From assembly GCA_015143295.1 (NCBI GenBank), contig CM026559.1:20536826-20600825 (forward strand): 64,000 nt of DNA, given 5' to 3'. Under the pieces are notes generated by a model. The model was not told the DNA's origin, did no database searches, and was given only the letters and a program-made list of their open reading frames with translations. Of this stretch, positions 3 to 61,114 are shown in pieces (position 1 is the first letter of the stretch; the number at the start of each line of letters is the position of its first letter). Made by a program: the position numbers and the translations under genes. This DNA is from Tetracentron sinense (lineage: Eukaryota; Streptophyta; Magnoliopsida; Trochodendrales; Trochodendraceae).

Positions 3-2821
3 GCTATAGAGCTTGCTCCGGGTACCGCTCCGATTTCAAGGGCACCATATAGAATGGCCCCTATAGAGCTTGAAGAATTAAAGAAGCAGATTGAGGAGTT
101 ACAACAACTTGGTTTCATCCAACCAAGTGTCTCGCCGTGGGGAGCTCCGGTTCTCTTTGTGAAGAAGAAGGACGGGTCTATGAGGATGTGTATAGACTAC
201 CGTCAGTTGAACAAGGTAACTATCAAGAATCGTTATCCCTTGCCAAGGATAGACGACTTGTTTGACCAACTGAAGGGAGCGAGATTCTTCTCCAAATTGA
301 TCTTAGATCGGGGTATCATCAATTAAGGATCAAGGCGGAAGATGTTCAGAAGACGGCTTTCAGGACTCGGTATGGGCATTACGAGTTCCTTGTCATGCCT
401 TTTGGGCTGACGAATGCACCGGCGGCATTCATGGATTTGATGAACCGGGTGTTCCGATCTTACTTGGATCGATGCGTAATTGCATTCATTGATGACATTT
501 TGGTGTATTCCCAGACACGGGAAGATCACGCACGAGACCTCCATCTTGCTCTGGAGATGTTGAGAGAGCATAGGCTATATGCCAAATTGAGTAAGTGCGA
601 GTTCTGGCTAGAGAAAGTCGCATTTCTTGGACACGTGGTGTCGGCCGAGGGTATTTCTGTAGATCCAGCCAAGGTTGAGGCAGTCATGAGTTGGGAGAGG
701 CCCAAGAGCGTTACGGAGATACGTAGTTTCCTCGGATTGGCAGGCTACTACCGGAGATTTGTGGAGGGATTCTCCAGTTTGGCTGCACCTCTCACCTACT
801 TGACAAGAAAAAGTGCAAAGTTCAGTTGGAGTGACCGATGTGAAGTAAGTTTCCAAGAGTTGAAGAAACGCCTCACCACAGCCCCTGTCCTTACTGTGCC
901 ATCCGGACATGGTGGTTATGAGGTATATAGCGATGCTTCGCATATCGGACTTGGGTGTGTCCTTATGCAGCATAAGAAAGTCATTGCCTACGCATCAAGA
1001 CAATTGAAGGAGCATGAAAAGAATTACCCCACTCATGACTTAGAACTCGCCGCAGTTGTGTTTGCATTGAAGATTTGGCGACATTATCTTTATGGGGAAC
1101 AATTTGAGGTATTCACAGATCATAAAAGCCTTAAGTATTTGTTTTCCCAGAAAGAGTTGAACCTGAGGCAAAGAAGATGGGTAGAATTTTTGAAAGACTA
1201 TGAGTGCTCCATTCAATACCACCCGGGCAAGGCAAATGTAGTAGCCGATGCTCTTAGCCGGAAGCCTACTGGACTTTTGGCGCATATGATGCTGAAGGAG
1301 TGGAGATTGCTAGAGGATGCATCCAACCTCGACATCAGTTTTAGTCTCCCTACCTATGGGCCGGTAATGGCTAGCATCACAGTTAGGCCATTTATGTTGA
1401 GCATGATCCAAGAGTTGCAGGAAATGGATGCCGAACTACTTTCTTGCCGAGACAAGTCAGTTAAAAGTGGCAGTAAGGACTTTACGGCGAGGGAAGATGG
1501 AATTATCACTTTCAAGGGAAGAGTATGTGTCCCAGCCGATGAGAAGCTTAAGCGAGAAATCTTGTACGAGGCTCACCGGTCCAAGTACACCGTTCACCCC
1601 GGGGGTACCAAAATGTATAGGGACTTGAAGAAGCATTTCTGGTGGCGGAACATGAAGCGAGAAATAGCGGAGTATGTGTCTAAATGCTTGGTGTGCCAAC
1701 AAGTCAAAGCCGAACATAGGAGACCGGCTGGACTTTTGCAGTCCCTCCCTATTCCCGAGTGGAAATGGGAACATATCTCTATGGACTTTATCGTGGGATT
1801 GCCGAAGACGGTCAAGAAGACCGATGCTATATGGGTAGTTATTGATAGACTCACGAAGTCCGCACATTTCTTACCGTACCGGACTACATTCAACTCCAAT
1901 CAGTTAGCGGAGCTATACATCAAGGAAATAGTCCGATTACACGGGGTGCCAGTGAGTATTGTGTCGGATAGAGACTCAAGATTCACATCCAGGTTTTGGA
2001 AAAGTTTTCAAGGTGCAATGGGCTCCCGATTAGACTTTAGCACAGCTTTCCACCCACAGACCGACGGGCAAACCGAGAGGGTGAATCAGGTTATTGAAGA
2101 TATGCTCCGAGCATGTATGCTAGACTTCAAGGGAAGTTGGGAAGATCACCTACCTTTGGTGGAATTCGCTTACAACAATAGTTATCAAGAAAGCATACAA
2201 ATGGCGCCTTTCGAGGCTTTGTACGGAAGGAGTTGTAGATCCCCGTTGTATTGGGATGAAGTGGGAGAAAGAAAGATTTTGGGCCCCGAGTTAATTGAAC
2301 AAACCGCGGATAGGGTCAAGCTTATCCGGGAGAGGTTGAAGACCGCACAAGATAGACAGAAAAGCTATGCCGACAACCGAAGGAGGGATCTTGAATTCCG
2401 AGTCGGCGATTTTGTGTTTGTAAGGATTTCACCGACCAAAGGTGTTATGCGATTCGGGAAGAGAGGCAAGCTTAGCCCGAGATATGTGGGTCCGTTCGAG
2501 ATCATTACTCGAGTTGGCGAGGTGGCTTACCGTGTGGCTTTGCCCGCTCACATGGCGGCGGTCCACAACGTGTTTCATATCTCCCAGCTTCGGAAGTACA
2601 TCCCGGATCCTTCTCACGTCATCGAGCTTGATCCGGTTGAGATTCGAGAGGATCTCACTTTGGTTGAGAAGCCGGTTCATATTTTGGATAGGAGAGATCA
2701 AGTGCTTCGCAACAAGACTATTCCGCTAGTCCTCGTGCAATGGCAACATCATGCACGAGAAGAAGCCACGTGGGAGCGTGAAGCCGAAGTCAAAGCAAAG
2801 TATCCCGAGTTGTTTGAATAG
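3..2821 (+). pseudogene. pol: gypsy pol (RT-RNase H-integrase-chromodomain), one frameshift
   Basis: Polyprotein that copies and inserts the element; the open frame enters from the left edge. RT motifs seen are [39 protein letters not shown] and the catalytic YxDD-type box FIDDILVYS. RNase H begins near [16 protein letters not shown]. Integrase has an HHCC finger (ending CLVCQQ) and D-D-E residues in [16 protein letters not shown] and [13 protein letters not shown]. The C-terminal 75 residues end [16 protein letters not shown], as in chromodomain gypsy elements. A single missing base at about 294-297 breaks the frame inside RT, just after RFFSK: the first frame stops at 324-326 and the second is then open without interruption to 2821. 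Apart from this the sequence looks recent. The break may be a real mutation or a sequencing error. Confidence 0.93.
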
Positions 2822-3123: not shown

Positions 3124-3310
3124 GAACCGATCGCTCGGTCCAGTCAGCGATCGATCGGTCCATAACCGATCGATCGGTAGCTATCGCGCGGTCAGAAATT
3201 TTGTATGGGGAAATTTTCCAGAGAGTGAGTTTTTGACCGGTCGATCGGTCATAAACACCGATCGATCGGTAGGCAACCGATCGATCGGTCATGAACACCG
3301 ATCGCTCGGT
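3124..3310 (+). promoter_or_regulatory. Palindromic CCGATCGATCGG module in LTR A
   Basis: Seven good and one degenerate copy of ACCGATCGATCGGT or ACCGATCGCTCGGT are spaced roughly every 20 bp in two groups. The groups flank a non-repeated core containing GTATGGGGAAATTTTCCAGA (3203-3222). The module lies about 210 bp into the LTR, in probable U3. The same layout, orientation and core occur in the copia LTRs at 50549-50733 and 60405-60589. An enhancer or promoter role is inferred. Confidence 0.75.
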
Positions 3311-6900: not shown

Positions 6901-7085
6901 ACCGAGCGATCGGTGGTTATGACCGATCGATCGGTTGCCTACCGAGCGATCGGTGTTTATGACCGATCGACCGGTCAAAAACTCACTCTCTGGAAAATTT
7001 CCCCATACAAAATTTCTGACCGTGCGATAGCTACCGATCGATCGGTTATGGACCGATCGATCGCTGACTGGACCGAGCGATCGGT
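6901..7085 (-). promoter_or_regulatory. Palindromic CCGATCGATCGG module in LTR G
   Basis: The same two groups of ACCGATCGATCGGT-type palindromes flank the CTCTCTGGAAAATTTCCCC core, in inverse orientation to LTR A. Several half-sites differ from LTR A (CGAGCG for CGATCG), but spacing and palindromic form are retained. Confidence 0.72.
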
Positions 7086-32384: not shown

Positions 32385-32484
32385 NNNNNNNNNNNNNNNN
32401 NNNNNNNNNNNNNNNNNNNNNNNNNNNNNNNNNNNNNNNNNNNNNNNNNNNNNNNNNNNNNNNNNNNNNNNNNNNNNNNNNNNN
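32385..32484. other. Assembly gap, 100 Ns
   Basis: Exactly 100 N characters, a conventional scaffold gap of unknown true length. Confidence 0.99.
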
Positions 32485-36340: not shown

Positions 36341-36630
36341 AGAGCACAATGAGGCCTGATTTCAAAGAGTCATTTCATTAAGATAATATCGGGTGAACAG
36401 ACTCAACTCGACAAAAGACAAATGAGACAAGGGCCATTAGCCACTGACCTGAATACACAACAACTGAAGTAAGGGCCATTGGCCATTGACTGACTGGACT
36501 GATGATAAAGAGACTGACATGGGCCACTGTGGCCAACTGTAAGATAAAAAGAAGAGATAGACATAAACACTGATATATGACCGAAAAGAGAACTATTCAA
36601 AGTTTAGTTATAGATACTGGTTGAAGAGCC
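36341..36630. other. Spacer between gag and the non-coding part of element D
   Basis: Contains repeated GGGCCATTGGCCATTGACTG-like phrases (36431, 36472, 36520). No pol sequence follows gag where it would be expected. Confidence 0.6.
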
Positions 36631-39217: not shown

Positions 39218-39235
39218 TCCCCAGCAGAGTCGCCA
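39218..39235 (-). promoter_or_regulatory. Primer binding site of element D
   Basis: The minus strand reads TGGCGACTCTGCTGGGGA shortly after the LTR end CATGCTCACA. This is the form usual in Ogre/Tat elements, reported to use an arginine tRNA; the tRNA was not checked here. Confidence 0.75.
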
Positions 39236-39239
39236 GAGC

Positions 39240-41548
39240 TGTGAGCATGGATTTTTCTACCCACTTTCACATTTGTGGTTTGACTAAGAGTCGCCACCTA
39301 TTCAGTCTTAGGGAAAGGTCCCGGATTGATTTGGATAAGGCAAATGATTTATTAGAGTTAGGGTAAGCGGTTCGGTTAAGTCATGGGGAAGGTGTTAGGC
39401 ACCCAAAGACCCCATTTTGTAATGGTTACCTACTCCCTAAATTTAAGCCAAATTTAATCTCAATATTAATTAAAATGTCTAAATGTTTAATCAAATGCTA
39501 ATCCAAGAAAGAAAGAAAGCTAGATTGACTAGGGTCGAACCCGGGTTGGGTTGCCTACGTACTCAAATTGGGGCGAGATCAGACCGAGCGTAGTTCTGGC
39601 ACATGAGCCCGTGCCAAGGCTAAAGGTGCGTGTGTGTGTGCATAAGGTGGTCAAGGGTCTAGCCTAGGGGCTAGGGTTTAGTTGACCGGGTTGGTCAAGT
39701 ACAAGGTCTAGGTCTAACCGCGGTTAGAAGGGTGTTAACCATGGTTGAGTAGGCTAACCAAGATCTAGCAAGCATGTTTTTGGTCTTTTGGTATTTTTAG
39801 ATTTTTTTGGTATTTTGAGATTTTATAATGTTTTTGGTATTTTGAGATTTTATCATTTTTTTTTTGGGAATTTCATATAGGCGGGATTTTGGCAAACTTA
39901 ACTAAATTCAAATTTAATTCAAGAGAAAGACTAAGGAAAAGTTAGGCTAAAAGATTATATTTAGGACATAAAGAGGGGTGTGCATTGTGAATAGTAAATG
40001 GTCTATTGCCAACACCTATTTTGTTGGATTGGTGTTGATAATAAATCAAATACCATTGTCTTTGATATGAGGCATTTTGGATAAAGTCCTCTTTAAGTCC
40101 CTAGGTCCTTAAGTCATCATTTATCAATTCAAAATAGAACATGAAGAAAAAAGAAAGAAATGAAAAAGTGACAAGTGAATAAAATGAAAACTCATCATCT
40201 CCTCTCTAATGTAGTCCCTTTACACCATTATGAATGATGTATGAGATTCAACTATGAAAATTGGAGTGATGATGAGTTTCCCAAAATTCTAGAAGAAGGA
40301 CTAGAATCAAAATGAAGAAACAAAATAACAAGAGAGGTATAGCTTTAGCTTCCACTCTCTATGGGCCTACCCATATCCACACTAGTGGGTACCTATGAAA
40401 GAAAGAAATATTTACACGAGAGAAAAAAAAAAACATCTTCTTTCTTTTGAGGTGGGGTCCCTCTACACCATTAGATTGGTGTGGAGAGACCCAACTAAAC
40501 TTGAGAAAAGAAAGGTCTTCCCAAATTATTCTAGAAGAAGACTACAAATAAAAAAAAAGATATGAACTAAAGAAGAAGATAAAGATTAAAAGGAGGAGTG
40601 CCTACTCCTCCAAGACTACTTCTCCAATGCTCCAAGAGGTGATGAGTTTTTAGAGTCCACAAAGGAAGAGAGTTAGTGAAGAACTCTAGGCTTAGTCCTA
40701 GAATTCTCTACACACTCTAAACCTTGGCTTCTTCTAACTTTCTTCAATGCTAAAAAGAAATAAAAGGGGTGAGAGGAGGAAGAGCTAGGGTTTCCACTTG
40801 GGGTTTTGGAGGTAGAAGAAATGGCTTGTGAGGGTCTTGTATTTATAGAGGTTTCAAGGGGTTGTGGCAATTTGGTGATAAATAGAGGGTTGGGTGAGAA
40901 GAAGGGAGGTGATTGGTTGGTCAAAATTGATGTGGTTGGTGATTGGGTAATCAAAAAGGTATGTATTTGATGAGAGGTGATTGGGTGGTCAAAAGGAGTG
41001 TAAGAGAATTAATTGTTTTGTAAGAGGTGTAAGAATGAGTGTAAGAGGTGTAAGAGAGTAAGGGAGGTGATTGGTTAGTAAAAAAGGTGTGTACTTGGTG
41101 AGAGATGATTGGGTGGCCAAAAAGGCGTGTAAACACAAAAATGGGGCTATTTGGGGTTTGAAGAAAAAATAAAAGGTCTTTTGTAAGAAAGTGGAAATTG
41201 GGCTTGGGTTTGTGGGTCTTGGATATGGGTTGAATGGATGTGGGCATGTGAACTATATCTTATGGATCATGGATTGTTAGCAGATGGGTCATGAGTTATG
41301 GTTATTGGACTTTGGCAATTGGGCTTGGGTTATGGTAATTAGGCTTTCGCTAAAGCAATTGAGTTTTAGCTAAGACAATTGGGTAATTAGGCTTGGCTAC
41401 TTGGGCTTGGGTAATGGAATTAAGTAATTAGGTTTGATTGAGTTGTTTGGGTACAAGTTTGGCCAAATGGGCTTGGGCCTTGGGTAAACCTTGGAGCATT
41501 TGAAGAAGTGGGAAGAGGGATAGGGGGTGCGAAAATAGGGTGCTTACA
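39240..41548 (-). repeat. 5' LTR of element D (2309 bp)
   Basis: On the minus strand it starts TGTAAGCACCCTATTTTCGC at 41548 and ends ATCCATGCTCACA at 39240, next to the primer site. It is nearly the same as 26933-29252. Confidence 0.93.
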
Positions 41549-44297
41549 GCTAATATGTGTTTACTTAAAAATAAAGATAACATTAACACTATGGTTATTG
41601 CTCATCAAAATGAAAATGTGCATACTATTGATTTTGATGAATTGACTTCTCAAAACATAATTTGTCTTTCCGCTCTAAATGAGACTAGTTAGTTATGGCA
41701 TAGAAGACTATGTTATGCTAGTATGGATTTATTATCAAAACTATCTAGAAATGAACTTGTTAAAGGATTATCTAAAACTAAATTCACTAAAGATAAAGTG
41801 TGTGATTAATACCAATTAAAAAAATAAATTAAAACATCTTTTAAAAAGAATAAAGAAATTTCCACTTCTGGACCATTGGAATTATTGCATATGGATCTAT
41901 TTGGTCCTAATGATGTTGCGAGCCTAAGAGGTAACATATATGTCTTTGTAATTGTTGATGACTATTATAGATATATTTGGGTATTATTTTTATCATATAA
42001 GAGTGAAGCACATATTTTATTTGCAAAGTTTTGTAAAAGAGTGTAAAACAACAAATGCTATGCAATTAATAACATTAGAAGTGATAGAGGTAGAGAATTT
42101 AAAAATAAAGAACTAGAATTTTGTTATGAAGAAAATAACTTTAATCATAACTTTTCCGTACCAAGAACATTTCAACAAAATGGAGTTGTTAAACGTAAAA
42201 ATAAATCTCTTCAAGAAATGGCAAGAATAATGTTTAATGAACATAAACTTTCAAACTATTTTTGGGCGGAAGAAACAAATACTTCATACTATGTAATTAA
42301 TAGGGTTGTCATAAGAAATAAACTTAATAAAATACCCTATGAATTATGGAAATGAAGATCACTTATAATAGGCTACTTTAGAGTATTTGATTGAAAATGT
42401 TTTATATTAAATGACAAACACAATTTAAAGAAATTTAAAGCTAAATCTAATAAAGGTATCTTTCTAGGATATTTAACAAATAGTAAAGCCTATAGAGTGT
42501 TTAACAAGACAACTCTAGTTCTTAAAGAATCCATTCATGTAGTCTTTGATGAATCAAATCCATTTGAAAAGACTAATGAAAAGGATAATCAATAAAACCC
42601 CATTGAAGTTGAAGATAAGGATGAAAATGAACAAGAAAATAAATATCAACTTTCCAAAACTTGGAGACTAGTAAAAGATCACCCTAAAGAACTCATACTT
42701 TATAATATGGAACAGAGGGTAAGAACAAGAAGAAACATTTGTAATAATCTTGCATTCTTTTCACAAATTGAATCAAGGAATGCAATTGAAGTTAAAAATG
42801 ATGAATTATGGGCAATTGTCATGCAAGAAGAGTTAAATCAATTTGAAAGAAACCAAGTATGAGACTTAGTTCCTAGACCTTATGATAAATCTATTATTGG
42901 AACTAAATGAATTTTTAGAAACAAAAAGGATGAAAATGAAAATATCATTAAAAATAAGGCAAAATTGGTAGCCCAAGGTTACAACCAAGAGAAATGAATC
43001 GACTATGAAGAAACTTTTGCTCCGGTTGTTAGGCTAGAGGCAATAATGTTACTTGCATTTGCTAGCTATAAAGATTTCAAATTATTTTATATAGATGTTA
43101 GAAATACATTTTTTTTAATGGATATATTTCAAAGGAAGTGTATGTTGAACAACCTCCATGTTTTGAAGATCATAAAAATCCTCATGTGTTTAAATTAACG
43201 AAGACTTTATATGGATTGAAACAGGCTCCTAGAGCTTGGTATAATAAACTTAATGGATTTTTACTTGAAAATGATTTTATAAGAGGAAAAATTAACACTA
43301 TCTTATTTGTAAAAACCAAAAATAAAGAATGCTTATTGTGCAAATGTATGTTGATGACATTATTTTTGGATCTACTAATGAAAATTTGTGTCAAAAATTT
43401 TTTAAGACTATGCAGGATGAGTTCGAAATGAGCATGATAACAGAACTAAACTTCTTTCTCGAACTTCAAATCAAGCAAACCAATTAAGGAACTTTCATCA
43501 AGCAAGCCAAGTACACAAGAGAACTTCTCAAGAAATTTGGGATGAACAACTCTAAAGAAAGTGATACACCAATGAGTCCATCTACAAAGCTTGACGAAGA
43601 TGAAAAATGCATTAATATTAAAGAAAAAATATCGAAGTATGATTGGTAGCTTACTATACTAATTGCTAGTAGGTCAGACATCATGTTTAGTGTATGTATT
43701 TGTACTAGATTTTAATCTTGTCCAAAAGAGTTTCATATGATTGCTGTTAAAAGAATTTTCAAATACTTGCTAGGTACCATTGACTTAGGATTGTGGTATC
43801 CCAAGAACACCTCACTTGAACTAATTAGTTATTCCGATGTGGACTTTGTCAGGTGCAAAGTTGATCGGAAGAGCACAAGTGGTACTTGCCACTTCCTAGG
43901 ACACTCTCTTATCTCATGGTTTAGTAAGAAACAAAACTCTGTAGCTCTATCTATAGCCGAGGTTGAGTATATAGTTGCTAGAAGTTGTTGTACTCAAACT
44001 CTATACATGAAACAACAATTAGAAGACTTCAAACTATTTTATGATAAAATTTCAATCAAGTGTGATAATACTAGTACAATATGTATGACCAAAAATCTAA
44101 TACAACACTCTAGAACAAAGCATATTAAATTAAGATATCATTTCATAAGAGACCATGTTCAAAATGAAGATGTAGTGTTGGAGTTTGTTGATATAAACAA
44201 CCAACTGGTTAATATCTTCACTAAACCTGTTCAAGATGAAAGATTTAGTACTTTAAGAAGAGAATTGGGCATGGCTAGACAAAGTGAAATAAAATGA
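41549..44297 (+). pseudogene. pol: copia pol remnant (integrase, RT, RNase H) of element B
   Basis: Resumes element B coding after element D. GAG-pre-integrase: LWHRRLCYASMDLLSKLSRN (about 41692). Integrase: LLHMDLFGP, IRSDRGREF and QQNGVVKRKN; the catalytic Glu expected in GVVERKN is Lys here. RT: IIKNKAKLVAQGYNQEK, IDYEETFAPVVRLEAIM, then after a frameshift [28 protein letters not shown] and MYVDDIIFGS in a third frame. RNase H (43737-44297): RKSTSGTCHFLGHSLISWFS, SKKQNSVALSIAEVEYI and KHIKLRYHFIRDHVQNEDVV. At least ten in-frame stops and several frameshifts make it dead; many stops are TGA where the intact copy has TGG. Confidence 0.92.
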
Positions 44298-44493
44298 TAC
44301 ATGTTTGCTCAAATTGAAATTTTTGGTCTAAATGTGCTTAATGATGTTATGATTTGAATGTTTGAGAATTATGCTAAGATGTTTGAATGATTATTTGTTA
44401 TTCAAATTAAATGTTTTCATTGCTGGAAGAATGAATTAATCAAGAGAAAATCAAATTCAAGTTGAAAAATAATAAATTATCAAAATTTGTGTT

Positions 44494-44638
44494 GAGACGT
44501 CGACGAATATTGTTCATAAAGGATCAGACTTCAACAACGCAAGACATTTTTCAATTTCCAGTAACTTGCTAAGGCTTGACATCGGTGGAAGCTGATGAAT
44601 CCATCTAAGACGTCGATGATGGGGTTCGTAAGTATAAA
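44494..44638 (+). promoter_or_regulatory. Putative internal promoter before the 3' ORF of element B
   Basis: AGACGTCGACGA (44495-44506) and AGACGTCGATGATG (44608-44621) repeat the motif of the element B LTR promoter. AGTATAAACA follows (TATAAA 44633-44638). The first ATG downstream of it, at 44824, opens the 3' ORF. The layout mirrors the LTR and the internal site in element F. Function is inferred. Confidence 0.5.
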
Positions 44639-44823
44639 CATAACCTAAAATCTGATTTTTCAAAAACTTTTTAACATCATCCCCTTTCGTATTCAACTGT
44701 TCCATTCCCTCCAAACCCTATTGAAACCTCCAAATCACTCTAAATCAATCCCAAACTCAGTCTATTTGATCCTAAATCCTTCAATCCTTCCTAAACCTCA
44801 TTTCCCCAATTCTTCTGTTCACG

Positions 44824-46180
44824 ATGCCGCCAAGAGTGAAGAACCCTGGCAAGAAATTAGTGGAGATGAAGAAGACGAGTACAAAAGGAAAGGAAGCTAC
44901 GAGTTCTTCAAGGCATTCTCAGTCTCTCTTCATTTCCACCAAAGCTTTTAAGTAATATCAAACCGTGTTTGCCAAGCTTACCCCTATATACGGTAAAATC
45001 GTGCACTTTTATTTCTCTCTGAAAATGGATTAAATCTAATCCATGATTGGTTCAAATCCCTCCATTGGACCACATTCCTAGAATACAAGAAGTCCATGTA
45101 CCCTGACTTTATGCGAAAATTCTATACCAACTTCAAATATGATGAAAAGACTGCCGAAATTTCTACTCGTCTTCATACAAAGACCTTCACATTTCCTAGA
45201 AAAATCCTTGAATAGATCTTTCATCTTCCCAGTGGTGAGTTCCAAATTTACACCACAAACCAGTGGGTTGTACACTCTGGTTTCAATGTAATTGATGCTC
45301 TAAAGCATATGTGCATCAATAAAAACATTTCCAAGGCTTTCCACCTGGCCTGAAGGACCTCACCCTCAAGGCTAGATTAATCCATCATATTATTTCGTAT
45401 AATATCACTCCTAGGGGAGGTGGTAGAGACCACGTGTCTTACTTTGACATTTTCTTGATGTGGTGCATTCTCACCACCAAGCCTATTGACCTGACTTACA
45501 TTATATTCCATCAAATGTTAGAGGCTTCCAAGAAGGACAGTGGTCATCTACCTTTTGGACTTGCTTTGACCCGTCTCTTAAAATTCTTCAAAATTCCCCT
45601 TTATATCTATCTTGATAGAGTGGATGCTTCAGACAATGATTATTACTCAAAGGCTACCATCAGAAGAATAGGATATGCTTGGATCAAAGATAATCATGTT
45701 TGGGTTTCCAAACCCATTGCTCTAGCTCCTTCTCATGATCCAGCTCCTACCCCAGATCCTTCTACTTCAGTTCCTATTGACTCCATTCCTAACTCTACTC
45801 CTGCTCCCATTCCTACTCCATTTCCAGTATCTGATTCTACTCCTACTCCTGTTATCCCTACCTTAGCTCTTGTATCTTCAGATATTCCATCTTCCTCAGC
45901 AGTAGAGTCAGAGATTGAGCCAGAGAGAGACATCCCTGAGCCATCATATCAGAGAAAGGACTCGCCTCAATTTGAGAATGCAGGACAATTTGACTTTCAT
46001 GAGTCCCCGAGGAGACCTGTAATGTTAGAAGACCAGATGAGCCTGATGACTAGTCAGATAGCCTCTATGGCTACTAGTATGGAGCACTTTCAGTTAGAGA
46101 TGAGGGAGAGTCAGCTGAGATTTCAGGCTGAGATCATAGAGAGGATAGCTGCTCTTGAGGCTAGCATAGCCAAAATTTAG
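44824..46180 (+). pseudogene. 3' accessory ORF of element B (plant transposon protein-like)
   Basis: Starts MPPRVKNPGKKLVEMKKTS at the first ATG after the putative TATA box; a basic, Ser-rich start ends at a TAA near 44949. Frames further on read YKKSMYPDFMRKFYTNFKYD, LHTKTFTFPRKILE (stop) and, from 45434, MSYFDIFLMWCILTTKPIDL, HQMLEASKKDSGHLPFGLAL, a Pro/Thr/Ser-rich linker (about 100 residues) and a coiled coil (MTSQIASMATSMEHFQLEMR). The order and spacing match the intact 3' ORF of element F (FYSNF..., IDLAAHIIDLMIQAH, ALPFGSLITKLL). It resembles the domain annotated as putative plant transposon protein. Stops and frameshifts make it non-functional. It occupies the env-like position; I see no membrane segments. 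Confidence 0.72.
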
Positions 46181-49309: not shown

Positions 49310-49620
49310 TTGGCCTATCGGGTCAAACTCAAAGCCTACCGAGCCCAACTCGAAGCCTACCGGGCTTACCCTTGGTTTTTGGGCCTAACCCAAAGCCTAC
49401 CAGGCTTACCCTTGACCTCCGGGTCCATCCAAGGCCTATCAGGCCTAATCTTGACCTACCGAGCCCAACCCTTAGTCTACCGGACTAAACCCTAGCCTCC
49501 AAGCTCACACCCTTGGCCTACCGGGCCTAAATCCTAGTTTATCGGACTACCCTTTGGCCTACCCGGCCCAATACCATACACTTGACCAACCTCGGTCAAC
49601 TCAACCCTAATCTACCAGAC
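49310..49620. repeat. Degenerate CCTACCGGGC repeat in solo LTR C
   Basis: Irregular units around GGCCTACCGGGCTTACCCTT, with variants CCTACCGAGCCCAAC and CCTATCAGGCC, repeat about ten times. Confidence 0.7.
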
Positions 49621-49686
49621 TAGACCCTAAGTCATCCTTGGTGCACACACAATACTCCCCTAGCCTTGCCACGGGTTCAAGTACCA

Positions 49687-49734
49687 GAACTACACTCGGT
49701 CTGATCTCACCCCAATGTGAGTACGTAGGCAACC
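49687..49734 (+). other. Conserved hairpin motif of the Ogre/Tat LTR
   Basis: GAACTAC and CTCAC pair with GTGAG and GTAG across a CCCAAT loop, followed by GCAACC. The same block lies in both LTRs of D (27243-27290 and 39549-39596, minus) and in the D interior (31927-31970, 35932-35975, minus). Stem bases differ between copies in compensatory ways. Confidence 0.6.
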
Positions 49735-49816
49735 CAACCCGGGTTCGACCCTAGTTTAGCTTTTCCCTTCTTGGATTAGTATAAACTAAAACCTAAGGCA
49801 TTTGACTAATCATTGA

Positions 49817-51049
49817 TGAAATTTATCCAGATCAATGATCTCTAAGACCTAGAGGGGGGGTGAATAGGTCTATCTAATAATTTCTAACCAATTTTAAATT
49901 TTCAATTAATATGTTTAGAAATCAACAATTAATTCAATCAGACAATCCACACAAATCAAACACAGAAGATTTTTACGTGGAAAACCCTAACGGGAAAAAA
50001 CCACGGGACCTTGTCCAGCAATAAACTTCACTATGAAAAGATATCAAGTACAAGACAAGACCTTACCAAAACAGAAACGACGTTCCTAGGTATAGACTCT
50101 TACTCTTGATTTCCACGAACCAGCAGGTTCGATCTCCGCCTTAGCAGCTTCGGTTCCACACCGACCAAATCTTTTCAAGCAACTTCAAATCCACGATCAC
50201 ACACGATCGATCTCCTTCCACGAAGGCTCCGGATCAAACACCGGACACACACACAAGGTGTAGGGTTGTGAATCAATTTAGTAAATTTCAAACCCTAGAG
50301 GGATCTCATACAGATCTGAGATCACACAATGCAAGATCAAAGATTTTAATCTATACTTGCATTCTCTAGGATCTAAGAAAGAGGAGGGATCAACAAAGAT
50401 CTAATAAAAACAATTAGAAAAACCCTAGAAGAGTTTCTCAGACCTCTACTCTTTCAAAAATTATCAAAGACGCGAATTAGGTCTCTCAAAAGTTGTTTAT
50501 ATAGGGTTAAAAAAAGAATCCAGAAAAAGAAAAATTCTTTTTACGAGGACCGATCGATCGGTGCTCACAACCGATCGCTCGGTTCACAACCGATCGATCG
50601 GTTCTAATGACCGATCGCTCGGTCTTAAAACATCTCTCTGGAAAATTTCCCCATACAAATATTTAGTCCAGTCGATAGCCACCGATCGCTCGGTAGGCGA
50701 CCGATCGATCGGTCGCAATACCGAGCGATCGGTTGAGACAGAATTTTTGCCAAAATTAATTCATTTTATTTTTATTTGATTCAACTAATATCAAATAACT
50801 TTGGTAGGCTTAAAACTATCCTCCTAGGTATTTTTAGAGTTATCTAAGTCAAATCAAACCTAGGTAGGGGTCTCTAAGTCCATTACCTGTCTAGATCCGG
50901 AGTAGAACCTTTTTCTTCTCTTTCTTCTATCTTCTTTAAGCTTTAGCTCTTCTCTTCTTTTCGGACAAGTTGAACATGACTCGACGACTCGACTCAACTG
51001 ACCTATCTAATGATCACGGAATTTGCCAACACCTATTTAGGGATTTACA
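49817..51049 (-). repeat. 3' LTR of element F (1233 bp)
   Basis: On the minus strand it starts TGTAAATCCCTAAATAGGTG at 51049 and ends GATCTGGATAAATTTCA at 49817. It has the same length as the 5' LTR and appears identical. Confidence 0.95.
50496..50733 (-). promoter_or_regulatory. LTR F promoter: CCGATCGATCGG module and TATA box
   Basis: Seven ACCGATCGATCGGT-type palindromes (50549-50733) in groups of three and four flank a core whose minus strand includes GTATGGGGAAATTTTCCAGA. The TATA box CTATATAAA lies at 50504-50496, 44 bp downstream. Group sizes, core and orientation to transcription match the gypsy LTR A module at 3124-3310. Confidence 0.75.
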
Positions 51050-51061
51050 ATCTCCCCCTTT
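51050..51061 (-). promoter_or_regulatory. Polypurine tract of element F
   Basis: The minus strand reads AAAGGGGGAGAT directly before the 3' LTR start TGTAAATCC. Confidence 0.85.
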
Positions 51062-51593
51062 GGCAATTCCGGGACAAAACAAAACTAGGTTCAAATTTTC
51101 CCAATTGATTCAAAAATGGAAAATTGACCTTTACATGACTCAAAAATAATTACATGACTTTTGACATGTTAACTTGTCATGATTTACCAAACTTAGAACC
51201 TGTTTGCCTGCACATGCTAAATCAAAAACCTGTGAAGCATGGGAAATAACATATAGGATGAAAATATGCATAACCATTCAAAACCATTCACAATGCATAA
51301 CAGGTTAGTATTCCAAAAGCTCATCCATCATCCATAACACAATCCATAACATCTATAATACCATTCTCCCCCTTTTTGGCTCGAAATGCCAAAGGTGGAT
51401 TAGAAAAGAAAAGCAGAAACCATTGAAAGGAGATGAGATAGAAAGTAATGAGCATAAACCATTCAAATGTATACATCCATAACAAGTCAATAATTACCAA
51501 GAAGGTTTGTACTAAGTACAACCAAGACAAAATACATCAAAATGGTAAACAAAGTCTGTCACTCGACTAAAAAACAACTTCTATCACGAACCA

Positions 51594-52883
51594 TCACTCT
51601 TGCTCATCATCAGAAGTGAGCTGTGACTCATAGTAAGCTCGAAAATCTCGAACATCTCTCTGTACCCCAAGCACGGCTGCATCGAGAGATCCAAGTCTAC
51701 CACGAACCTCTATAGTAAACTCCTCGTATGAAGAAATATGAGTCCGGAGATCCATCTGCATCTCGCTCATCATCCTCCCAAGATCGTCCATAGTGGTCGG
51801 AGGAGGACGAGATGATCCAGCACCAACTTCTGCTCCCTCCTCTGTATCTCGAACTGAGGCATGTGAAAAACTCTGAGCTAGGGTCTTTTTGGTGATTGGA
51901 CCCTTAGGAACTCGAGTAGGAACACCAGGAGGAGCGATAACTCCTTGAGAACCAAGAAGTTTAGTGATGAGTGAACCAAATGGTAGGGCTCCAACTGCTG
52001 TATTAGTTTGATGGGCTTGGATCATCAAGTCAATGATGTGAGCGGCAAGATCAATATCACGCCCACGTAGAAGACTAAACAAAAATCTAGCTCTATCTTC
52101 CCTAAGGTCCGCAGTATGAACCTTGGGATGGATATTTGCACTCATAACTAGGTTTACTAGTCTAGCATCCTTAGTGAGTTTCGCCACTTCAATAAGAGAC
52201 CCAACCCAAAACGAAGGAGTACCACTTAGAAAGGTAACTACATGTTCCATGGAGTCTTTATCCTCATCAGTTTTATAATTATAAGGATAATATGCATTTG
52301 GAACTCGAGGACACCCAAGGAATTTAGAAACCAAATCAGCATTTATGACAACAGATTGTTCTAATGCTCGAGATTTGAATGACCATTTTTTCTGGTTGAT
52401 TTCAGAAAAATTAGAGTAAAATTCTCTAACTAACTGGACAGAAGCAGGACCGGATAAGGTAAGCATACCTTCCCATTGACGATCTGAAATGAGAGTAGGA
52501 AGATAATAATCACCAAAATCAGAAATATGTATGTCCCTTTCAACCATAACACCTTTCTTGCTAAAATACTCACTATAGAGTTGAGCAGCAGTAGGACTGA
52601 TAAACTGGGATAACTTACTAGACTGGGAAGATGAAGCTTTACCTTTATTTTTCCGAGTTTTATCAGCCAGAGATTTTTGACGATTCTCAATTGTAGAATC
52701 AATCATTCTACGAATTGGCCTGTCCCCAATGGAAATACCATGCCCTATTGGAGTGAAAGTAAAGGGCTCTAGGTTTTCCTCATCTTGAGGAGGATCCTCT
52801 TGGTTGTTGAGGACCAACCTCCGACGTTTGGGGATGCCAGACATGAGATAGGCAAGAAGGATTAACGACAAAACGAAAGCCAT
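51594..52883 (-). CDS. 3' accessory ORF of element F (429 aa), plant transposon protein-like
   Basis: Intact frame between pol and the 3' LTR, in the env-like position of SIRE elements. I chose ATG 52883 (MAFVLSLILLAYLMSGIPKR) because it is the first ATG after the internal TATA box; the frame itself stays open to 52928 without another ATG, and Met at 52844 (MSGIPKRRRLVLN) is an alternative. The first choice adds a 12-residue hydrophobic stretch of unknown meaning. Then come a basic/Ser-rich region, a globular core (LYSEYFSKKGVMVERDIHIS, FKSRALEQSVVINADLVSKF, IDLAAHIIDLMIQAHQTN, ALPFGSLITKLLG), a Ser/Pro linker and a C-terminal coiled coil ending ESQLTSDDEQE. It resembles the putative plant transposon protein domain. 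Biochemical function unknown. Element B has a decayed homologue at 44824-46180. Confidence 0.78.
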   Translation of the reverse strand: MAFVLSLILLAYLMSGIPKRRRLVLNNQEDPPQDEENLEPFTFTPIGHGISIGDRPIRRMIDSTIENRQKSLADKTRKNKGKASSSQSSKLSQFISPTAAQLYSEYFSKKGVMVERDIHISDFGDYYLPTLISDRQWEGMLTLSGPASVQLVREFYSNFSEINQKKWSFKSRALEQSVVINADLVSKFLGCPRVPNAYYPYNYKTDEDKDSMEHVVTFLSGTPSFWVGSLIEVAKLTKDARLVNLVMSANIHPKVHTADLREDRARFLFSLLRGRDIDLAAHIIDLMIQAHQTNTAVGALPFGSLITKLLGSQGVIAPPGVPTRVPKGPITKKTLAQSFSHASVRDTEEGAEVGAGSSRPPPTTMDDLGRMMSEMQMDLRTHISSYEEFTIEVRGRLGSLDAAVLGVQRDVRDFRAYYESQLTSDDEQE

Positions 52884-53061
52884 TGAAGAAAATGCAAGAA
52901 ATGATGCCCTAGATGAGAAAATGCACAACTCTTACCTTTTAGATGCTTGGGAAACCTTTAGAGTAGAATGGAATGTTCGTATGAAAGATTTGGAGGAGAG
53001 GAAACCGAGAGATCGCTCTGGAGATCGGAGAACAAGTGAACAAAAAAAATAGAAATGAGGG

Positions 53062-53119
53062 TTTTATAACCCTGTTCACGAAAGACCGATCGATCGGTCT
53101 TTAGCACCGAGCGATCGGT
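53062..53119 (-). promoter_or_regulatory. Putative internal promoter before the 3' ORF of element F
   Basis: A perfect 22-bp palindrome (53081-53102, centre GACCGATCGATCGGTC) and ACCGAGCGATCGGT (53106-53119) repeat the LTR F motif. On the minus strand TATAAAA follows at 53068-53062. No ATG occurs in the next 178 bp until the 3' ORF start at 52883. A promoter role is inferred. Confidence 0.55.
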
Positions 53120-54289
53120 GGTCTGAAAATTTTTCAAAAATTTTTACTGTTAAAACCTTTTCTCCCCCTCAACCAATGGAACATTTAAAATACATTTTCA
53201 CCTCAAAATGACCAACTGACCAAAAAAATGCAACATGTGATTTCATAAAAATCATAGATAATAATCACCCTAGAATTGATATATCAAGTATCGGTATAAA
53301 CAAGGATTATGAAAACATTAATTGATTTTCACCGGTGATTAAATATGGTATTTGCATCAAATTCACAATCAGAGTCAAGATACAATTAGAAGTAATGTGA
53401 GTATGAAATCAAAATTCATTACTTGACTCGTTGAATTGGTTTCCTTCCTTAATCTAGATTTTGACATTATATTTCAAATGGGACTCTAAAATTTTCAAAA
53501 GCTAGTTTTAAAACCAATAATCATCCATATTTATCTGATGAGCAATTTTTACCCCATATTTGACTAATAAATTTATTTCATTTCTTTTTCAGTCAAATTG
53601 TACTCATTATGTAAATTCTTTTTGGAGTACACATATATAGTCTCTAGCACACTGGTGACTTTCACTCAAGTGAGAAGGTAGCTCTTTCTAATGACAGTAG
53701 GGGCTTTCACACTAGCAATCCATATAGATACCTACTGTTTGTCTAGGTAGCCATTACTCACTGTTTGCATTCACTAGTAGCTATCACACAAACTCACAGG
53801 TAGTCCTCTCCATGTCAATATTTTTATATCTAGGGGGCTCACCTTATGGAATTTTTATGACATTGGTTATACTAGATTTGATTAATCTAGGGAACCATAT
53901 GGTATAATATCAGAACCTTTATATAGGAACTAAAACAATCTAAAGAATCAGTCAGAGTGCTTGTGCAAATTAGAACATCATTGTATGCTCAACTCTAACT
54001 GAGGTTAATTAGCATGACCAAATTCAATTACAAGATCGAACCAACAATTGAACTTTCCTATTTTATTCAATCCTATGATATATTTATCCTTGGATTATAT
54101 GGTTAAATATGATTTCAAGGAAATAACATTAAGCTAAAAGATAGGATAAATAAGGTCATATAAACACATTATTTTTTGCAATATTTTTCAATTTTTTGAA
54201 TGTTTTTGGATTTTTATTACTTAAAAAAAAATAGCTCTATGACTTAAATAGAACATGAAAAACACATAGGCTATGAAACCAGTACACCA
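53120..54289. other. Non-coding spacer between pol and internal promoter of element F
   Basis: About 1.2 kb of AT-rich sequence with no recognisable gene. It includes CTAGTAGCTATCACACAAACT-like short phrases repeated near 53640-53800. Confidence 0.6.
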
Positions 54290-57200
54290 TTACTCAACTC
54301 CACACAAACCGATGGATTTCCTAAGGAGTTCAAACCTAAGGGAATCTAAAGGTTTTGTGAGAATGTCCGCATATTGATTCTCTGTTTGGACATACTCAAT
54401 AGACACAACTTTTTGCTCAACAAGATCACGGATGAAGTGATGCCTAATGTCTATATGCTTTGTACGAGAGTGTTGCACAGGATTTTTGGAGATATTGATT
54501 GCACTTGTGTTATCACAATACACAATCATAGTGCTTTGATCAATCCCATAATCCTTCAACATCTGTTTCATCCACAGGAGTTGGGTGCAACAACTACCAG
54601 CTGCTATATACTCAGCCTCGGCTGTAGACAAGGAAATGGAATTCTGCTTTTTGCTAAGCCAAGCAACCAAGCAGTTTCCAATATAGAAACACCCGCCGGA
54701 GGTGCTCTTCCTATCATCAGTATTTCCAGCCCAATCAGCATCAGAATACCCCACAACAATGACATTTGTATCGAAAGAATACCAGAGGCCTAAGGACAAA
54801 GTTCCACTCACATAGCGAATGATACGCTTGACAGCAACTAAGTGAGACTCTTTGGGATTTGCTTGATAACGGGCACATGCTCCAACACTAAAGGCTATGT
54901 CGGGTCTAGTAGCAGTTAGGTAGAGCAAACTACCTATCATGCTTCTATAATTAGTCTGATCGACATCCTTCCCTGAAGTATCTTTACTAAGCTTTATAGT
55001 AGTACTCATAGGAGTCCTAGCATGCTTAGAAAAACTCATTCCAAATTTCTTCACTAAATTTTTTGCATATTTGATTTGAGATACTGAGATCCCAGAATCC
55101 AATTGCTTGATCTGAAGACCAAGGAAGAAACTTAGCTCACCAACCATGCTCATTTCAAATTCATTTTTCATTTGTTCAGCAAATGAATGAGCATGTAAGT
55201 CTAATGTGGAACCAAATACTATGTCATCAACATATATCTGGGCGATGACAATATCACCTTTCACTTTCTTTATGAAAAGGGTTCTGTCTACTCCCCCTCT
55301 CGAAAATCCGTTTTCCAAGAGATAAGTAGTCAGCCTCTCATACCAAGCTCTTGGAGCTTGTTTTAAACCATAGAGGGCCCTTTTTAGTCGATAAACTTGA
55401 TCAAGGTGATGTGGATCTTCAAACCCTTTTGGTTGTTCCACATAGACTTCTTCATGTAGAATGCCATTCAGAAAGGCACTCTTAACATCCATTTGAAAAA
55501 GTTTGAATTTCATATTACAAGCCACAGCTAGAAGAATTCTTATTGATTCTAGCCTGGCTACAGGAGCAAAAGTTTCATCGAAGTCAATACCTTCAATTTG
55601 GGTATATCCTTGTGCAACTAACCTAGCCTTATTTCTTATGATAGTACCTTTTTCATCAGATTTGTTCTTGAAAATCCATTTGGTACCTATCACATTTGTA
55701 TTATTAGGCCTAGGTACTAAATACCAAACATCATTCCTAGTAAACTGAAGTAACTCTTCTTGCATTGCATTTATCCAATTATCATCTGCAAGAGCTTCAG
55801 CTACATTCTTGGGTTCAAAAGATGAAGTATAGCAAATGTAGCTAACTTCATTTTCAATTTGTTTCCTCGTTCTCACTCCACTTTCAACATCACCAATAAT
55901 ATCAGTGGAGGTGTGAGGACTCATGACCCTAGGATGTGTAGGTTTTAATGGAGATGTTTGCTTATCAATAGGTGAAGTTGAAATAATTTCAACATCTTCA
56001 TTTTCAGCACTTTCATCATCCTCACATTGCACATTTTCAACACCAGAGTCATCCACAATTACATTTATGGACTCCATAATTGTAGAGGTTCTCAAGTTAT
56101 ACACTCGATAAGCTCTACTGTTGGTGGAATACCCAAGAAATATCCCTTCATCACTCCGGGATTCAAATTTTCCCAGTTGCTCTCTATCCTTAAGGATATA
56201 GCATTTACTTCCGAATTCTCGAAAGTACGTGACACTAGGTTTCTTGTTATTCCACAACTCATATGGGGTTTTCCTTGTTCCAGGTCTTACAAAAACTCTA
56301 TTAACTATATAGCAAGCAGTGTGAACTGCCTCAGCCCAGAAATGAGAAGCTAGATTGTTGCTATGAAGCATAACTCTAGCCATCTCTTGGAGAACCCTGT
56401 TCTTCCTCTCTACTACACCATTCTGCTGAGGTGTAATAGGTGCAGAAAATTCATGTTTGATACCAGACTCAACACAAAAGTCGTTGTACTTAGAGTTTTC
56501 AAACTCCTTTCCATGATCACTTCGAATTCGAGTGATTGGGCATCTTTTCTCATTTTGAATTTTCAGGCAAATACTTTTGAAATTGTCAAAAGCATCGGAT
56601 TTCTCTCTTATAAATGCCACCCAAGACATTCTAGAGAAATCATCAACCATGACTAGGATGTATCGCTTTCCACCTAGACTTTCAGTTCTTGTAGGACCCA
56701 TAAGGTCCATATGAATTAATTCCAGTGGATATGAAGTAGCAATACTTGAAGTCTTCTTATGTGGGGTCCTAATTTGTTTACCAATTTGACATGGCCCACA
56801 CACAGCAGTAGAAGGCTTTCCTAGTTTGGGAACACCTCTCACAAGCTCTTGCTTAGAGATTTTACATAGGTCTTTGAAGTTCATGTGACCTAGTCTTCGG
56901 TGCCACAAATCAACCTCCTCAATTCTAGTCTTATAACAGACATTTGAGGGAATAGGACTGGGAGTTAGGCCGTAGCAATTGTCAGTGGTTCTCAATCCTT
57001 CTAGAACACACTTACCTTTACCATTAATGACTAAGCATTTATTTTGGGTAAAGTGCACAGCATGATTATCATCACATAGTTGACTTATGCTAATTAAATT
57101 AGCTTTCAGTCCTTCAACAAACAAGGCATCTTTCAATTTAGGTATGCCTGGTGAATTGATGATACCCTTTCCTTTGACTAAAGACTTGCTTCCATCACCA

Positions 57201-59605
57201 AAAGTAACAGTCCCATCAGGACAGTCCTCAAATTGAATAAATAAGGACTTGTTACCTGTCATATGCCGAGAACACCCACTATCGAAGTACCACATTTCTG
57301 TGTTTTGGGCTTTCAAGGCAGTATGAATGACAAAGCACTTGAGGTCTTCCTTTCTCACATACACAGTCTTTAAACTTTGTTTAGATCTTTGATCATTAAT
57401 CTGTGTAGTAGAGACCTTTTTCCTTTTTGTCCTCCTTGACCTTTTTCTGTTTTGTTCAGTTCTAGTTTTTTGATAAGTCAAATTATTTCCTCTTGTATAG
57501 TCATTTGGAATAAATTGACCAGTCCTTGTCCTAGATATTTGAGCAATTCTGTTAACATCATCGCTCAACATTCTAGACTTTTCAGCTAGAACCTGAATCT
57601 GCCTTTGAAGAGTCCCTTGACTCAGATTTTGGTTCCATGAACCATTTCGGGGAGCTCTCCTAAATGCATTACAATTAGGTCGAATGTGACCTCTCACACC
57701 ACAAAAGTGACATGTGGGTATGAATCTTGGTAGAGGAGGAAGATTTCTTCTAACTGGAATTTGATTTCTTAAAGCATTTACTCTAGGAGCTGTATATCTA
57801 GGCTTTACAAAATTTGTATAAGCCTTAGTACTTGATGTAGAAGGTAAATTTTCTTTGGGTTCAGAATGTATTGGCTCAAACACTGCACTAGCCATTGTTC
57901 CAACAGCTAAAGGACCAGTTGGTGTGTCAACATGTCCTATCCCAGATCTACTAGAATTTGATCCATACTTTCTGACTAATTCATCTAGGCAGCTGGTGTT
58001 ACCAAACATTCTCACTTCTTTTTCAAGAGTATAGACCTTCTGAATCAAGTCAGTCTTGTCTTTAAGGGTAATTTGGTGTTCTTTTTCAAGAAATTTCACC
58101 TTATCAACAAGAGAGACTTTAAAAGTTTCCAGCTCCATTTGCAGAGTTTTTAACTCTTCAATTTCTTTCATGGAAGTGTCTCTTTCATCTTCTAATTTTC
58201 TGACCACATTAGTCAATGAGACATTCTCTTCCAAAAGACATTGAACTTTTATAACAAATGCTTCTTTTTCATTTTCCAACTGACTAACTAGTGCACTCTT
58301 CTCTTCTGCTACTAGTTTACAGATATCTCTTTCATTTTGAATGAATTTGAGTTTTTTGCTCAAAGAGATTTTTGTTTTAGTCAGTTTTAAACTTTCAGCA
58401 TACAACTTATCATAAGTTGTTTTCAAATCTTCATCACTTTCAGAGTCAGTTTGACTCTTCTGTAAGTCATCACTTGACTCAGTATGAATACTTTCATCAC
58501 TTCTATCATTTTCATCAACCGCAGAGGTAGTCTCAAGAATCCCAGATAGGGAAACAGTGAAAGCCGTATGATTTCCAGTATCTTCACTTGAAGAGGAACT
58601 GTCCGATTCTTCATTCTCGGAATCACTGTCATCCCAACAGGCATTCATCACCTTGCCCTTACTCTTCTTCTTGTTAGGACAGTTAGGTGAAATATGTCCG
58701 AAGCCATGGCATTCATAACATTGAACACCTTGGGATTTCTTGTCGCCACTTTTGGAATTTTTTTTGTTTTCCCAGGGCTTAGACTTTGACTTATCAAAAG
58801 ATTTTCCTCCCTGTTTGGGATTAAACCTCTTTTTCGTTCTAAAAAATTTTCAAAATTTTTTAACGAAAAGAGCCATTTCTTCCTCATTCATTTCTCCATC
58901 ACTGTCATCCTCATCCAAAGTTTCCTTGATGGTTTTCAAGGCTAAAGATTTATTCTTCTTGGATGGACGTAGATTGAGTTCATAGGTTTGGAGTGATCCA
59001 ACCAATTCCTCAATCTTCAGAGAGTCAACATTTTTACTCTCTTCGATTGCAGTGACTTTGGGTTGAAATCTCTCTAGGAGAGATCTAAGGACTTTTCTAA
59101 CTATTTTGGACTCAGATAATTTCTCACCTAAATTGAAACTAGCGTTGACAATGTCACTAAGTTTTGCATAGAATTCATCAAAAGTGTCATTGTCTTCCAT
59201 GTTTAAATGTTCAAATTTGGTGGTTAACATTTGGAGTTTTGAGATTTTAACAGTGGTAGTACCCTCATGGGTAATTTCAAGAATGTCCCAAGCCTCCTTT
59301 GCTGTTTCACATGAAGAAATTCGTCTGAATTCCTCAGCAGTGACTGCAGTAAAGATAGCATTGAGACCTTTAGTGTTCCATCCACTTGAATCAAGCTCTT
59401 CTCTGGTCCATTCATCAGAATATTTGACGACAGTCAAATCACCTACAGTTTTTACGGGCGTAGTCCACCCATTCTGTATAGACATCCAAATTCTCTCGTC
59501 TATAGATTTGAGAAAGGCTCTCATTCTAGCTTTCCAGTATGCATAATTATTTCCATCAAAAAGTGGGGGACGAGAGACGGATCCTCCTTCTCTTAGAGTA
59601 CTCAT
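54290..59605 (-). CDS. gag-pol: copia gag-pol polyprotein of element F, one internal TGA
   Basis: Gag starts [20 protein letters not shown] at 59605 (Met 59611 two residues earlier). A UBN2-type capsid runs to FVKKF, where TGA at 58852-58850 interrupts; the same frame then continues without another stop to 54290, about 1770 codons in all. After the stop come CCHC knuckle [14 protein letters not shown], an acidic and long coiled-coil region, and a second knuckle [14 protein letters not shown] (about residue 313 of the downstream 1453-aa frame). Then protease [13 protein letters not shown] (454), integrase with MDLMGPT (648), [10 protein letters not shown] (712) and [10 protein letters not shown] (745), RT with [11 protein letters not shown] and [10 protein letters not shown] (about 1140), and RNase H with [12 protein letters not shown] (about 1342) to LTKPLD. 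All catalytic residues are present. The stop is a CGA-to-TGA type change or a readthrough site. Confidence 0.93.
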
Positions 59606-59658
59606 GATCACGGATAATACAGGATCACACTTAAGGGATTAGCCTTATCAGTGAACTA

Positions 59659-59670
59659 GCTCTGATACCA
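59659..59670 (-). promoter_or_regulatory. Primer binding site of element F (tRNA-iMet type)
   Basis: The minus strand reads TGGTATCAGAGC two bases after the 5' LTR end. Confidence 0.95.
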
Positions 59671-59672
59671 AT

Positions 59673-60905
59673 TGAAATTTATCCAGATCAATGATCTCTA
59701 AGACCTAGAGGGGGGGTGAATAGGTCTATCTAATAATTTCTAACCAATTTTAAATTTTCAATTAATATGTTTAGAAATCAACAATTAATTCAATCAGACA
59801 ATCCACACAAATCAAACACAGAAGATTTTTACGTGGAAAACCCTAACGGGAAAAAACCACGGGACCTTGTCCAGCAATAAACTTCACTATGAAAAGATAT
59901 CAAGTACAAGACAAGACCTTACCAAAACAGAAACGACGTTCCTAGGTATAGACTCTTACTCTTGATTTCCACGAACCAGCAGGTTCGATCTCCGCCTTAG
60001 CAGCTTCGGTTCCACACCGACCAAATCTTTTCAAGCAACTTCAAATCCACGATCACACACGATCGATCTCCTTCCACGAAGGCTCCGGATCAAACACCGG
60101 ACACACACACAAGGTGTAGGGTTGTGAATCAATTTAGTAAATTTCAAACCCTAGAGGGATCTCATACAGATCTGAGATCACACAATGCAAGATCAAAGAT
60201 TTTAATCTATACTTGCATTCTCTAGGATCTAAGAAAGAGGAGGGATCAACAAAGATCTAATAAAAACAATTAGAAAAACCCTAGAAGAGTTTCTCAGACC
60301 TCTACTCTTTCAAAAATTATCAAAGACGCGAATTAGGTCTCTCAAAAGTTGTTTATATAGGGTTAAAAAAAGAATCCAGAAAAAGAAAAATTCTTTTTAC
60401 GAGGACCGATCGATCGGTGCTCACAACCGATCGCTCGGTTCACAACCGATCGATCGGTTCTAATGACCGATCGCTCGGTCTTAAAACATCTCTCTGGAAA
60501 ATTTCCCCATACAAATATTTAGTCCAGTCGATAGCCACCGATCGCTCGGTAGGCGACCGATCGATCGGTCGCAATACCGAGCGATCGGTTGAGACAGAAT
60601 TTTTGCCAAAATTAATTCATTTTATTTTTATTTGATTCAACTAATATCAAATAACTTTGGTAGGCTTAAAACTATCCTCCTAGGTATTTTTAGAGTTATC
60701 TAAGTCAAATCAAACCTAGGTAGGGGTCTCTAAGTCCATTACCTGTCTAGATCCGGAGTAGAACCTTTTTCTTCTCTTTCTTCTATCTTCTTTAAGCTTT
60801 AGCTCTTCTCTTCTTTTCGGACAAGTTGAACATGACTCGACGACTCGACTCAACTGACCTATCTAATGATCACGGAATTTGCCAACACCTATTTAGGGAT
60901 TTACA
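59673..60905 (-). repeat. 5' LTR of element F (1233 bp)
   Basis: Minus strand TGTAAATCCC (60905) to ATAAATTTCA (59673). It contains the palindrome module at 60405-60589 and a TATA box at 60360-60352, as in the 3' LTR. Confidence 0.95.
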
Positions 60906-61114
60906 ATTGACATTAACTTGGCTTATACCTAGTAAGTAGGGAACCGTTGTAAAACGGAAGCGCTGGGTGCCTAACACCTTCCCCAGGCTTAACCGAACCT
61001 CTAAGCAAACTAAGACCTTATCCATTACCTGAGACTCATCCCTACGAAATCAATAAGTGGGGACTCTAAACATAACATTATGCCAAATGTGGGTAACCAG
61101 AATCCGTGCTCACA

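Follow-up and report, generated by a model that had tools for sequence, protein, structure and literature searches.

Elements and features of the window

The window is the whole stretch of 64,000 nucleotides of Tetracentron sinense DNA that was analysed (contig CM026559.1, positions 20,536,826 to 20,600,825), and it holds a copia element, F, and part of a gypsy element, A; the LTRs of both carry a module in which 14-bp palindromes, here called boxes, flank a 20-bp core. The features of copia F are as follows.

49817-60905, minus strand: copia element F
59673..60905, minus strand: 5' LTR, with no difference from the 3' LTR
54290..59611, minus strand: gag and pol, with a copia gag and a reverse transcriptase of the RVT_2 type
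53085..53119, minus strand: two extra boxes (53106-53119 and 53085-53098) 5' of the env-position ORF3, then TATAAAA near 53068
51594..52928, minus strand: ORF3, 444 aa, Pfam Transposase_32, between pol and the 3' LTR
51017..51071, minus strand: Sirevirus-type junction, inverted-repeat arms CGGAATTGCCAA / TTGGCAAATTCCG around GGGGGAG AT|TG
49817..51049, minus strand: 3' LTR, 1233 bp, TG...CA
50498..50503, minus strand: TATA-like TATATAA, about 45 bp past the last box; the same lies at 60359 in the 5' LTR
49812..49816, no strand: target-site duplication ATTGA, with its partner at 60906-60910

Copia F is a Sirevirus-type element by its junction, by the placement of its boxes and by the ORF3 in the env position; its reverse transcriptase is placed by the Pfam RVT_2 match only. 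At the junction, the PPT is followed by the attachment site, GGGGGAG AT|TG at 51048-51058, and the two arms of the inverted repeat pair with one unpaired base; the left arm stands beside the PPT and the right arm begins 21 nt inside the LTR, the average for the Sirevirus junction repeat being 28 nt according to the excerpts of PMC2829016. As for the boxes, seven lie upstream of the TATA motif in each LTR and two more before ORF3, with a TATA motif after both sets. The CGG-CCG palindrome signature is absent from the F box, and in the same excerpts Tnd-1 also lacks it.

Regarding the coding part, an in-frame stop at about 58850 splits the first part of gag from the remainder, and another copy is open at this point; ORF3 had no relative at E 0.001 in the protein collection, with 7994 candidates scored. 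Both flanks of copia F (49573-49782 and 60906-61002) match adjacent parts of the 26933-29255 / 39240-41551 repeat family, so that the element seems to be inserted in a relative of this repeat. The stretch 26933-41551 is itself bounded by an LTR-like 2.3-kb pair, 98% identical and 12.3 kb apart, and encloses a further repeat pair (30197-36328) and a gypsy-type gag (37196-38212). A second Transposase_32 fragment, weak and under the Pfam cut-off, occurs at 43716-46180, near a segment (42768-43242) that is 68% like the F pol DNA.

The gypsy part of the window comprises three features.

395..2818, plus strand: part of the gypsy A pol, with RT/RNase H, integrase and a weak C-terminal chromodomain match
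from 2914, plus strand: gypsy A 3' LTR
from 7297, opposite strand: second gypsy LTR, A2

The pol order RT-RNaseH-integrase is clear, and the Chromo match is weak (E 1.8e-4, 21.8 bits, under the cut-off of 25.1); gypsy A is a candidate Tekay/Del chromovirus, Del and Tekay being the same group. The two gypsy LTRs point towards each other within a large inverted repeat at 2914-7297, which also contains tandem repeats of 69 bp, at about 4225-4638 and 5659-5995. Finally, a reading frame for a protein kinase, open over 370 aa, lies between repeats at 16352-17464.

Layout of the module

The module occurs four times in the window.

3126..3310, plus strand: module of gypsy LTR A; 14-bp boxes from 3126, 3146, 3165, 3236, 3257, 3276 and 3297; core 3203-3222
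6901..7085, minus strand: module of the inverted second gypsy LTR copy A2; core 6989-7008; 181/185 identical to A
50549..50733, minus strand: module of the copia F 3' LTR; boxes 50720-50733, 50700-50713, 50681-50694, 50610-50623, 50589-50602, 50570-50583 and 50549-50562
50637..50656, minus strand: core of the copia F 3' LTR, GTATGGGGAAATTTTCCAGA
60405..60589, minus strand: module of the copia F 5' LTR; core 60493-60512

Read in the direction of transcription, the seven palindromes and the core have identical offsets in gypsy A, gypsy A2 and both copia F LTRs, with no indel: boxes at 0, 20 and 39, the core at 77, and boxes at 110, 131, 150 and 171. The initial annotation, made from the letters alone, had described three boxes, a core and four boxes in one orientation in both elements, and position mapping and ungapped alignment confirmed it. 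The core is indeed common to both, and the identical run to which it belongs measures 26 bp (TTTGTATGGGGAAATTTTCCAGAGAG); the agreement reported ahead of the core, GGCTATCG, had to be corrected, since the agreeing bases are GCTATCG. The copia F box is ACCGATCGATCGGT, in the order CCG...CGG. In the gypsy A copies of the window, no consensus TATA box follows the module closely; other gypsy copies have one there, as read by eye.

Similarity inside and outside the module

In the ungapped alignment of A and F, 92 of the 98 box positions are identical, as are 27/32 in the core with its surround and 27/55 in the spacers; for the spacers, the shuffled mean was 13.5 (sd 3.2), and 27 was reached in 1/20000, so the module alignment that the initial annotation had proposed exceeds its shuffled baseline even outside the palindromes. 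The comparison was then widened to 7 of 9 copia and 23 of 37 gypsy-group copies, namely the rows with at least 4/5 of the tested boxes in register (the 2/9 copia and 14/37 gypsy-group copies below this level were excluded), and 54 spacer columns gave 52% identity, whereas permuting the columns 5000 times gave 25% (sd 4.6) and at most 43%. The spacers also agree in register, with 28.3 matches at register 0 and no more than 16.3 at shifts of 1-10 bases.

This spacer identity bears on convergence, by which both superfamilies would have had the core-and-box plan from early on, and common host factors would have imposed the same boxes on gypsy A/B/C and, independently, on copia F; the excess over the 25% expected, located outside boxes and core, speaks against it, and together with the evidence given below it makes this explanation unlikely.

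Along the LTR, the A-F similarity ends at the first and at the last box. With at most six pairs per comparison, the mean A-F identity was 0.29 upstream, 0.77 in the module and 0.37 downstream, shuffled sequence giving 0.29; homology is therefore confined to the module, with flanks near the shuffled level, and whole-LTR homology, that is, misclassified elements, was rejected. The corresponding values were 0.55, 0.90 and 0.42 for A-B, 0.46, 0.46 and 0.35 for A-T, and 0.31, 0.46 and 0.16 for F-T, where the gypsy group T is represented by a single locus, L015. In the A-B comparison the module stands well above its flanks, which suggests that selection holds the unit.

Occurrence in the genome

The genome scanned comprised 1.16 Gb in 1479 contigs. 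The exact 20-mer core had 3451 + 3447 = 6898 occurrences and its reversed control none, and the tandem pair of boxes was found at 19529 + 19270 places, again with 0 for the control; the core had 0 occurrences in viral contigs. As for the distance between core and boxes, counted with a 15-base piece of the core, the box start ACCG lies exactly 13 bp past the core at 3064 + 3093 = 6157 places, against 255 off-distance places, of which 73 + 60 (133) are at 0-12 bp and 62 + 60 (122) at 14-30 bp; several of the latter also have ACCG at 13, among the matches listed.

This nearly fixed distance of 13 bp to a core that is not itself a box is one of the points that argue against the palindromes acting as RNA or as hairpin DNA (a source of small RNA, a packaging signal or a 3' end signal) instead of as protein sites. 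The module does fold strongly as RNA, at -92 and -104 kcal/mol for the native sequences, which alone were folded, and excerpts of PMC5311732 report palindrome motifs of maize Sirevirus LTRs as hotspots of small-RNA mapping; on the other side, boxes are also present outside the LTR, before the ORF3 TATA box, and many boxes carry an off-symmetry base. On balance, an RNA or hairpin role is unlikely.

Regarding the surroundings of the module, 20 core loci of 10 kb on one contig (C1) contained 23 cores, every one beside LTR or pol sequence of gypsy or copia F. A further 20 box loci on the same contig, picked away from exact core matches, all had the plan, their core being degenerate and in two cases recognised by eye only (L056, and L055, whose core is one base shorter). 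By their flanks, 14/20 of these are gypsy LTRs and 4/20 copia F, and 2/20 (L062 and L063) match neither reference; L062 begins with TGTAGAACCCCG, as does the gypsy LTR of L015, read by eye. In total, 38/40 sampled loci are identified by flank or pol as LTRs of gypsy or copia F. At locus L026, the start of an A-type gypsy LTR lies within a copia F LTR, which indicates that the two families meet physically.

The initial annotation had offered, beside transfer between the elements, the capture of one host sequence by both, and had proposed a search for the module outside LTRs. Capture of the same host promoter found no supporting point and the search no host copy among the 40 loci of this contig, with all 20 core loci and 18/20 box loci placed in gypsy or copia LTRs; these are 40 places of thousands, and a rare host copy could escape such a sample. 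We consider capture highly improbable. As for other LTR families, in which a search had also been proposed, the core is present in gypsy T and in a Sirevirus family, S, each with other boxes.

Two further versions of the module

Locus L015, of group T, is a gypsy LTR beside pol, and has the same core and boxes like CCGGTCGACCGACT. Over 173 residues, the pol of this one T locus is 0.68-0.71 identical to that of six gypsy A/B/C loci, which share 0.75-0.97 among themselves. Twenty T relatives were taken from 40 places listed by DNA similarity; 17/20 have flanks like L015, and none was seen beside pol.

Family S was recovered from the Sirevirus attachment pattern, with 14 places taken of 641 after exclusion of F-type LTR starts. 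Two of the 14 are S, with two mismatches in the core and boxes AGGGTCGACCCT; in the other 12, defined by the attachment pattern alone, no sequence closer to the core than 7-9 mismatches was found over about 850 bp. Eight of these 12 carry other palindromes, such as TTCGTCGACGAA; boxes with a different outer half, e.g. TTCGTCGACGAA, CTCGTCGACGAG and TCGGACGACCGA, occur in L069, L071-L073, L077-L079 and L081, with no core in the fetched stretch. Another 16 S loci were taken, and 15 were anchored. An F-like gag lies upstream of one S LTR, and no other match to F pol was present in the 5.5 kb beside one S LTR. In the fetched stretches of the gypsies, ORF3 was not found.

By hand count, the box centres relative to the core start are at about -42/-41, -22/-21, 40, 62 and 84 in S and T, and at -70, -50, -31, 40, 61, 80 and 101 in A/B/C and F; the grid is about 22 bp in the former and 19-21 bp in the latter. 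That gypsy T and Sirevirus S have core and plan too, with different boxes on a common grid, favours convergence, whereas the offsets of F and A/B/C, which agree with each other yet differ from those of S and T, do not. Beside the core, F is again nearer gypsy than S: core-flank identity is 0.61 between F and gypsy A/B/C, 0.55 between F and T, and 0.44 between F and S, which places F closer to both gypsy groups than to Sirevirus S.

Relationships and direction of the proposed transfer

With 19 T modules, the mean identity was 0.45 for T-A (0.39-0.53), 0.46 for T-B and 0.44 for T-F, and in the same comparison 0.76 for A-F and 0.77 for B-F; the F module is thus nearer to that of gypsy A/B/C than is the module of gypsy T, which belongs to the same lineage as the latter. 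In a tree of 65 modules, copia F forms one clade (100/99) among the gypsy-group modules, nearest to L062 and L063, and T stands apart (100/100). When S is added, a 100/100 split separates F and gypsy A/B/C from S and T, and T no longer forms one clade. The T loci L033 and L038 were omitted from the trees; the sets for the AU tests left out 11 near-copies or long rows, and the larger S set also L095, which is poorly anchored.

Should the split of F and A/B/C from S and T be correct, it would take two or more crossings between superfamilies. However, grouping by superfamily (F with S and gypsy with T) costs 15.5 log-likelihood units and is not rejected by the AU test (p 0.28, or 0.20 in a smaller set with two S rows), a result in favour of convergence. 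The transfer of a U3 promoter unit put forward in the initial annotation is accordingly upheld in part: spacer homology, unrelated flanks and the grouping of F with A/B/C support it, and the superfamily grouping still stands beside it. As for direction, gypsy to copia is the more likely from the sequence relationships; copia may be nested inside gypsy, but both this nesting and the direction are weakened by the AU test of gypsy A/B/C as one clade (p 0.57, not rejected) and by the unmatched flanks of L062 and L063.

Interpretation

The comparisons point to the 185-bp unit as a U3 enhancer that was probably received across superfamilies by the copia F lineage, or, less likely, by the gypsy lineage. 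Such an enhancer would lie upstream of the TATA box and consist of arrays of dimer-type binding boxes, about two helical turns apart, which flank a constant core. The unit would have moved after gypsy A/B/C had split from the more distant group T, either through recombination between LTRs of co-resident elements or through template switching from one such LTR to another. The position before the TATA box, the conservation above that of the rest of the LTR, the fixed distances of about two helical turns and the boxes before ORF3 are consistent with an enhancer that a dimeric protein reads. One host protein would bind the boxes as a dimer and another the core; shared readers would switch both families on together, and copia F would produce a separate mRNA under the control of the boxes ahead of ORF3. 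Points against exchange are that the boxes may be alike through the pull of one binding protein and that 14/37 gypsy-group and 2/9 copia copies fall short of 4/5 tested boxes in register.

A broader reading is that a promoter grammar in which the core stays constant and the boxes are exchangeable passes among unrelated retrotransposons, with a changing reader that could be encoded by an element (the Sirevirus ORF3) and used by gypsies too. It builds on at least two versions, each in both superfamilies (gypsy T with Sirevirus S, and gypsy A/B/C with copia F), and from the change of the box sequence through the whole array, as if it tracked a changing reader; we regard it as unlikely. Returning to the exchange of a U3 enhancer, if it is true, retrotransposon control regions pass from one superfamily to another without the genes, and two abundant families of one genome answer to one switch.

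Comparison with known systems

U3 regulatory regions are exchanged between subfamilies of retroelements (Tnt1, retroviruses), and U3 evolves as a module; to our knowledge, the known exchanges stay within one superfamily. In the literature searched, 'GGGGAAATTTTCC' and 'CCGAGCGATCGG' had no match, CCGATCGATCGG strings gave only one bacterial and one cancer paper, both off topic by listing, and no report of an LTR module shared by gypsy and copia was among the matches listed. As far as these listings show, the colinear module, with its common core and fixed grid and with one version present in both copia and gypsy, is the new part.

On the gypsy side, the nearest system is the CpG islands of Del LTRs (Cruz et al. 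2014, PMC4029996). Its excerpts describe a CpG-rich stretch in the 5' half of the chromovirus LTR that varies between groups, like the gypsy module; in the paper 'palindrom' does not occur and 'sirevirus' occurs once, and no island is reported for the eudicot Del group.

On the copia side, the counterpart is the repeated palindromic motifs (RM) of Sirevirus LTRs, also found 5' of the env-like gene (Bousios et al. 2010, PMC2829016). According to the excerpts of that study, RM, like the copia F boxes, are dyads in several copies that precede the TATA box in the first half of the LTR and recur 5' of env, and RM are absent from the classic Ty1/copia elements compared there. The F box, CCG...CGG, has the reverse order of the CGG-CCG signature, and the gypsy T box contains CGGTCGACCG, the RM given for the Vitis Sirevirus. 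Unlike for the present module, no common core, fixed grid or gypsy is described in these excerpts. That study leaves open the purpose of the palindromic boxes, for which an exchange between superfamilies would offer a test: the parts that are kept are the parts that matter.
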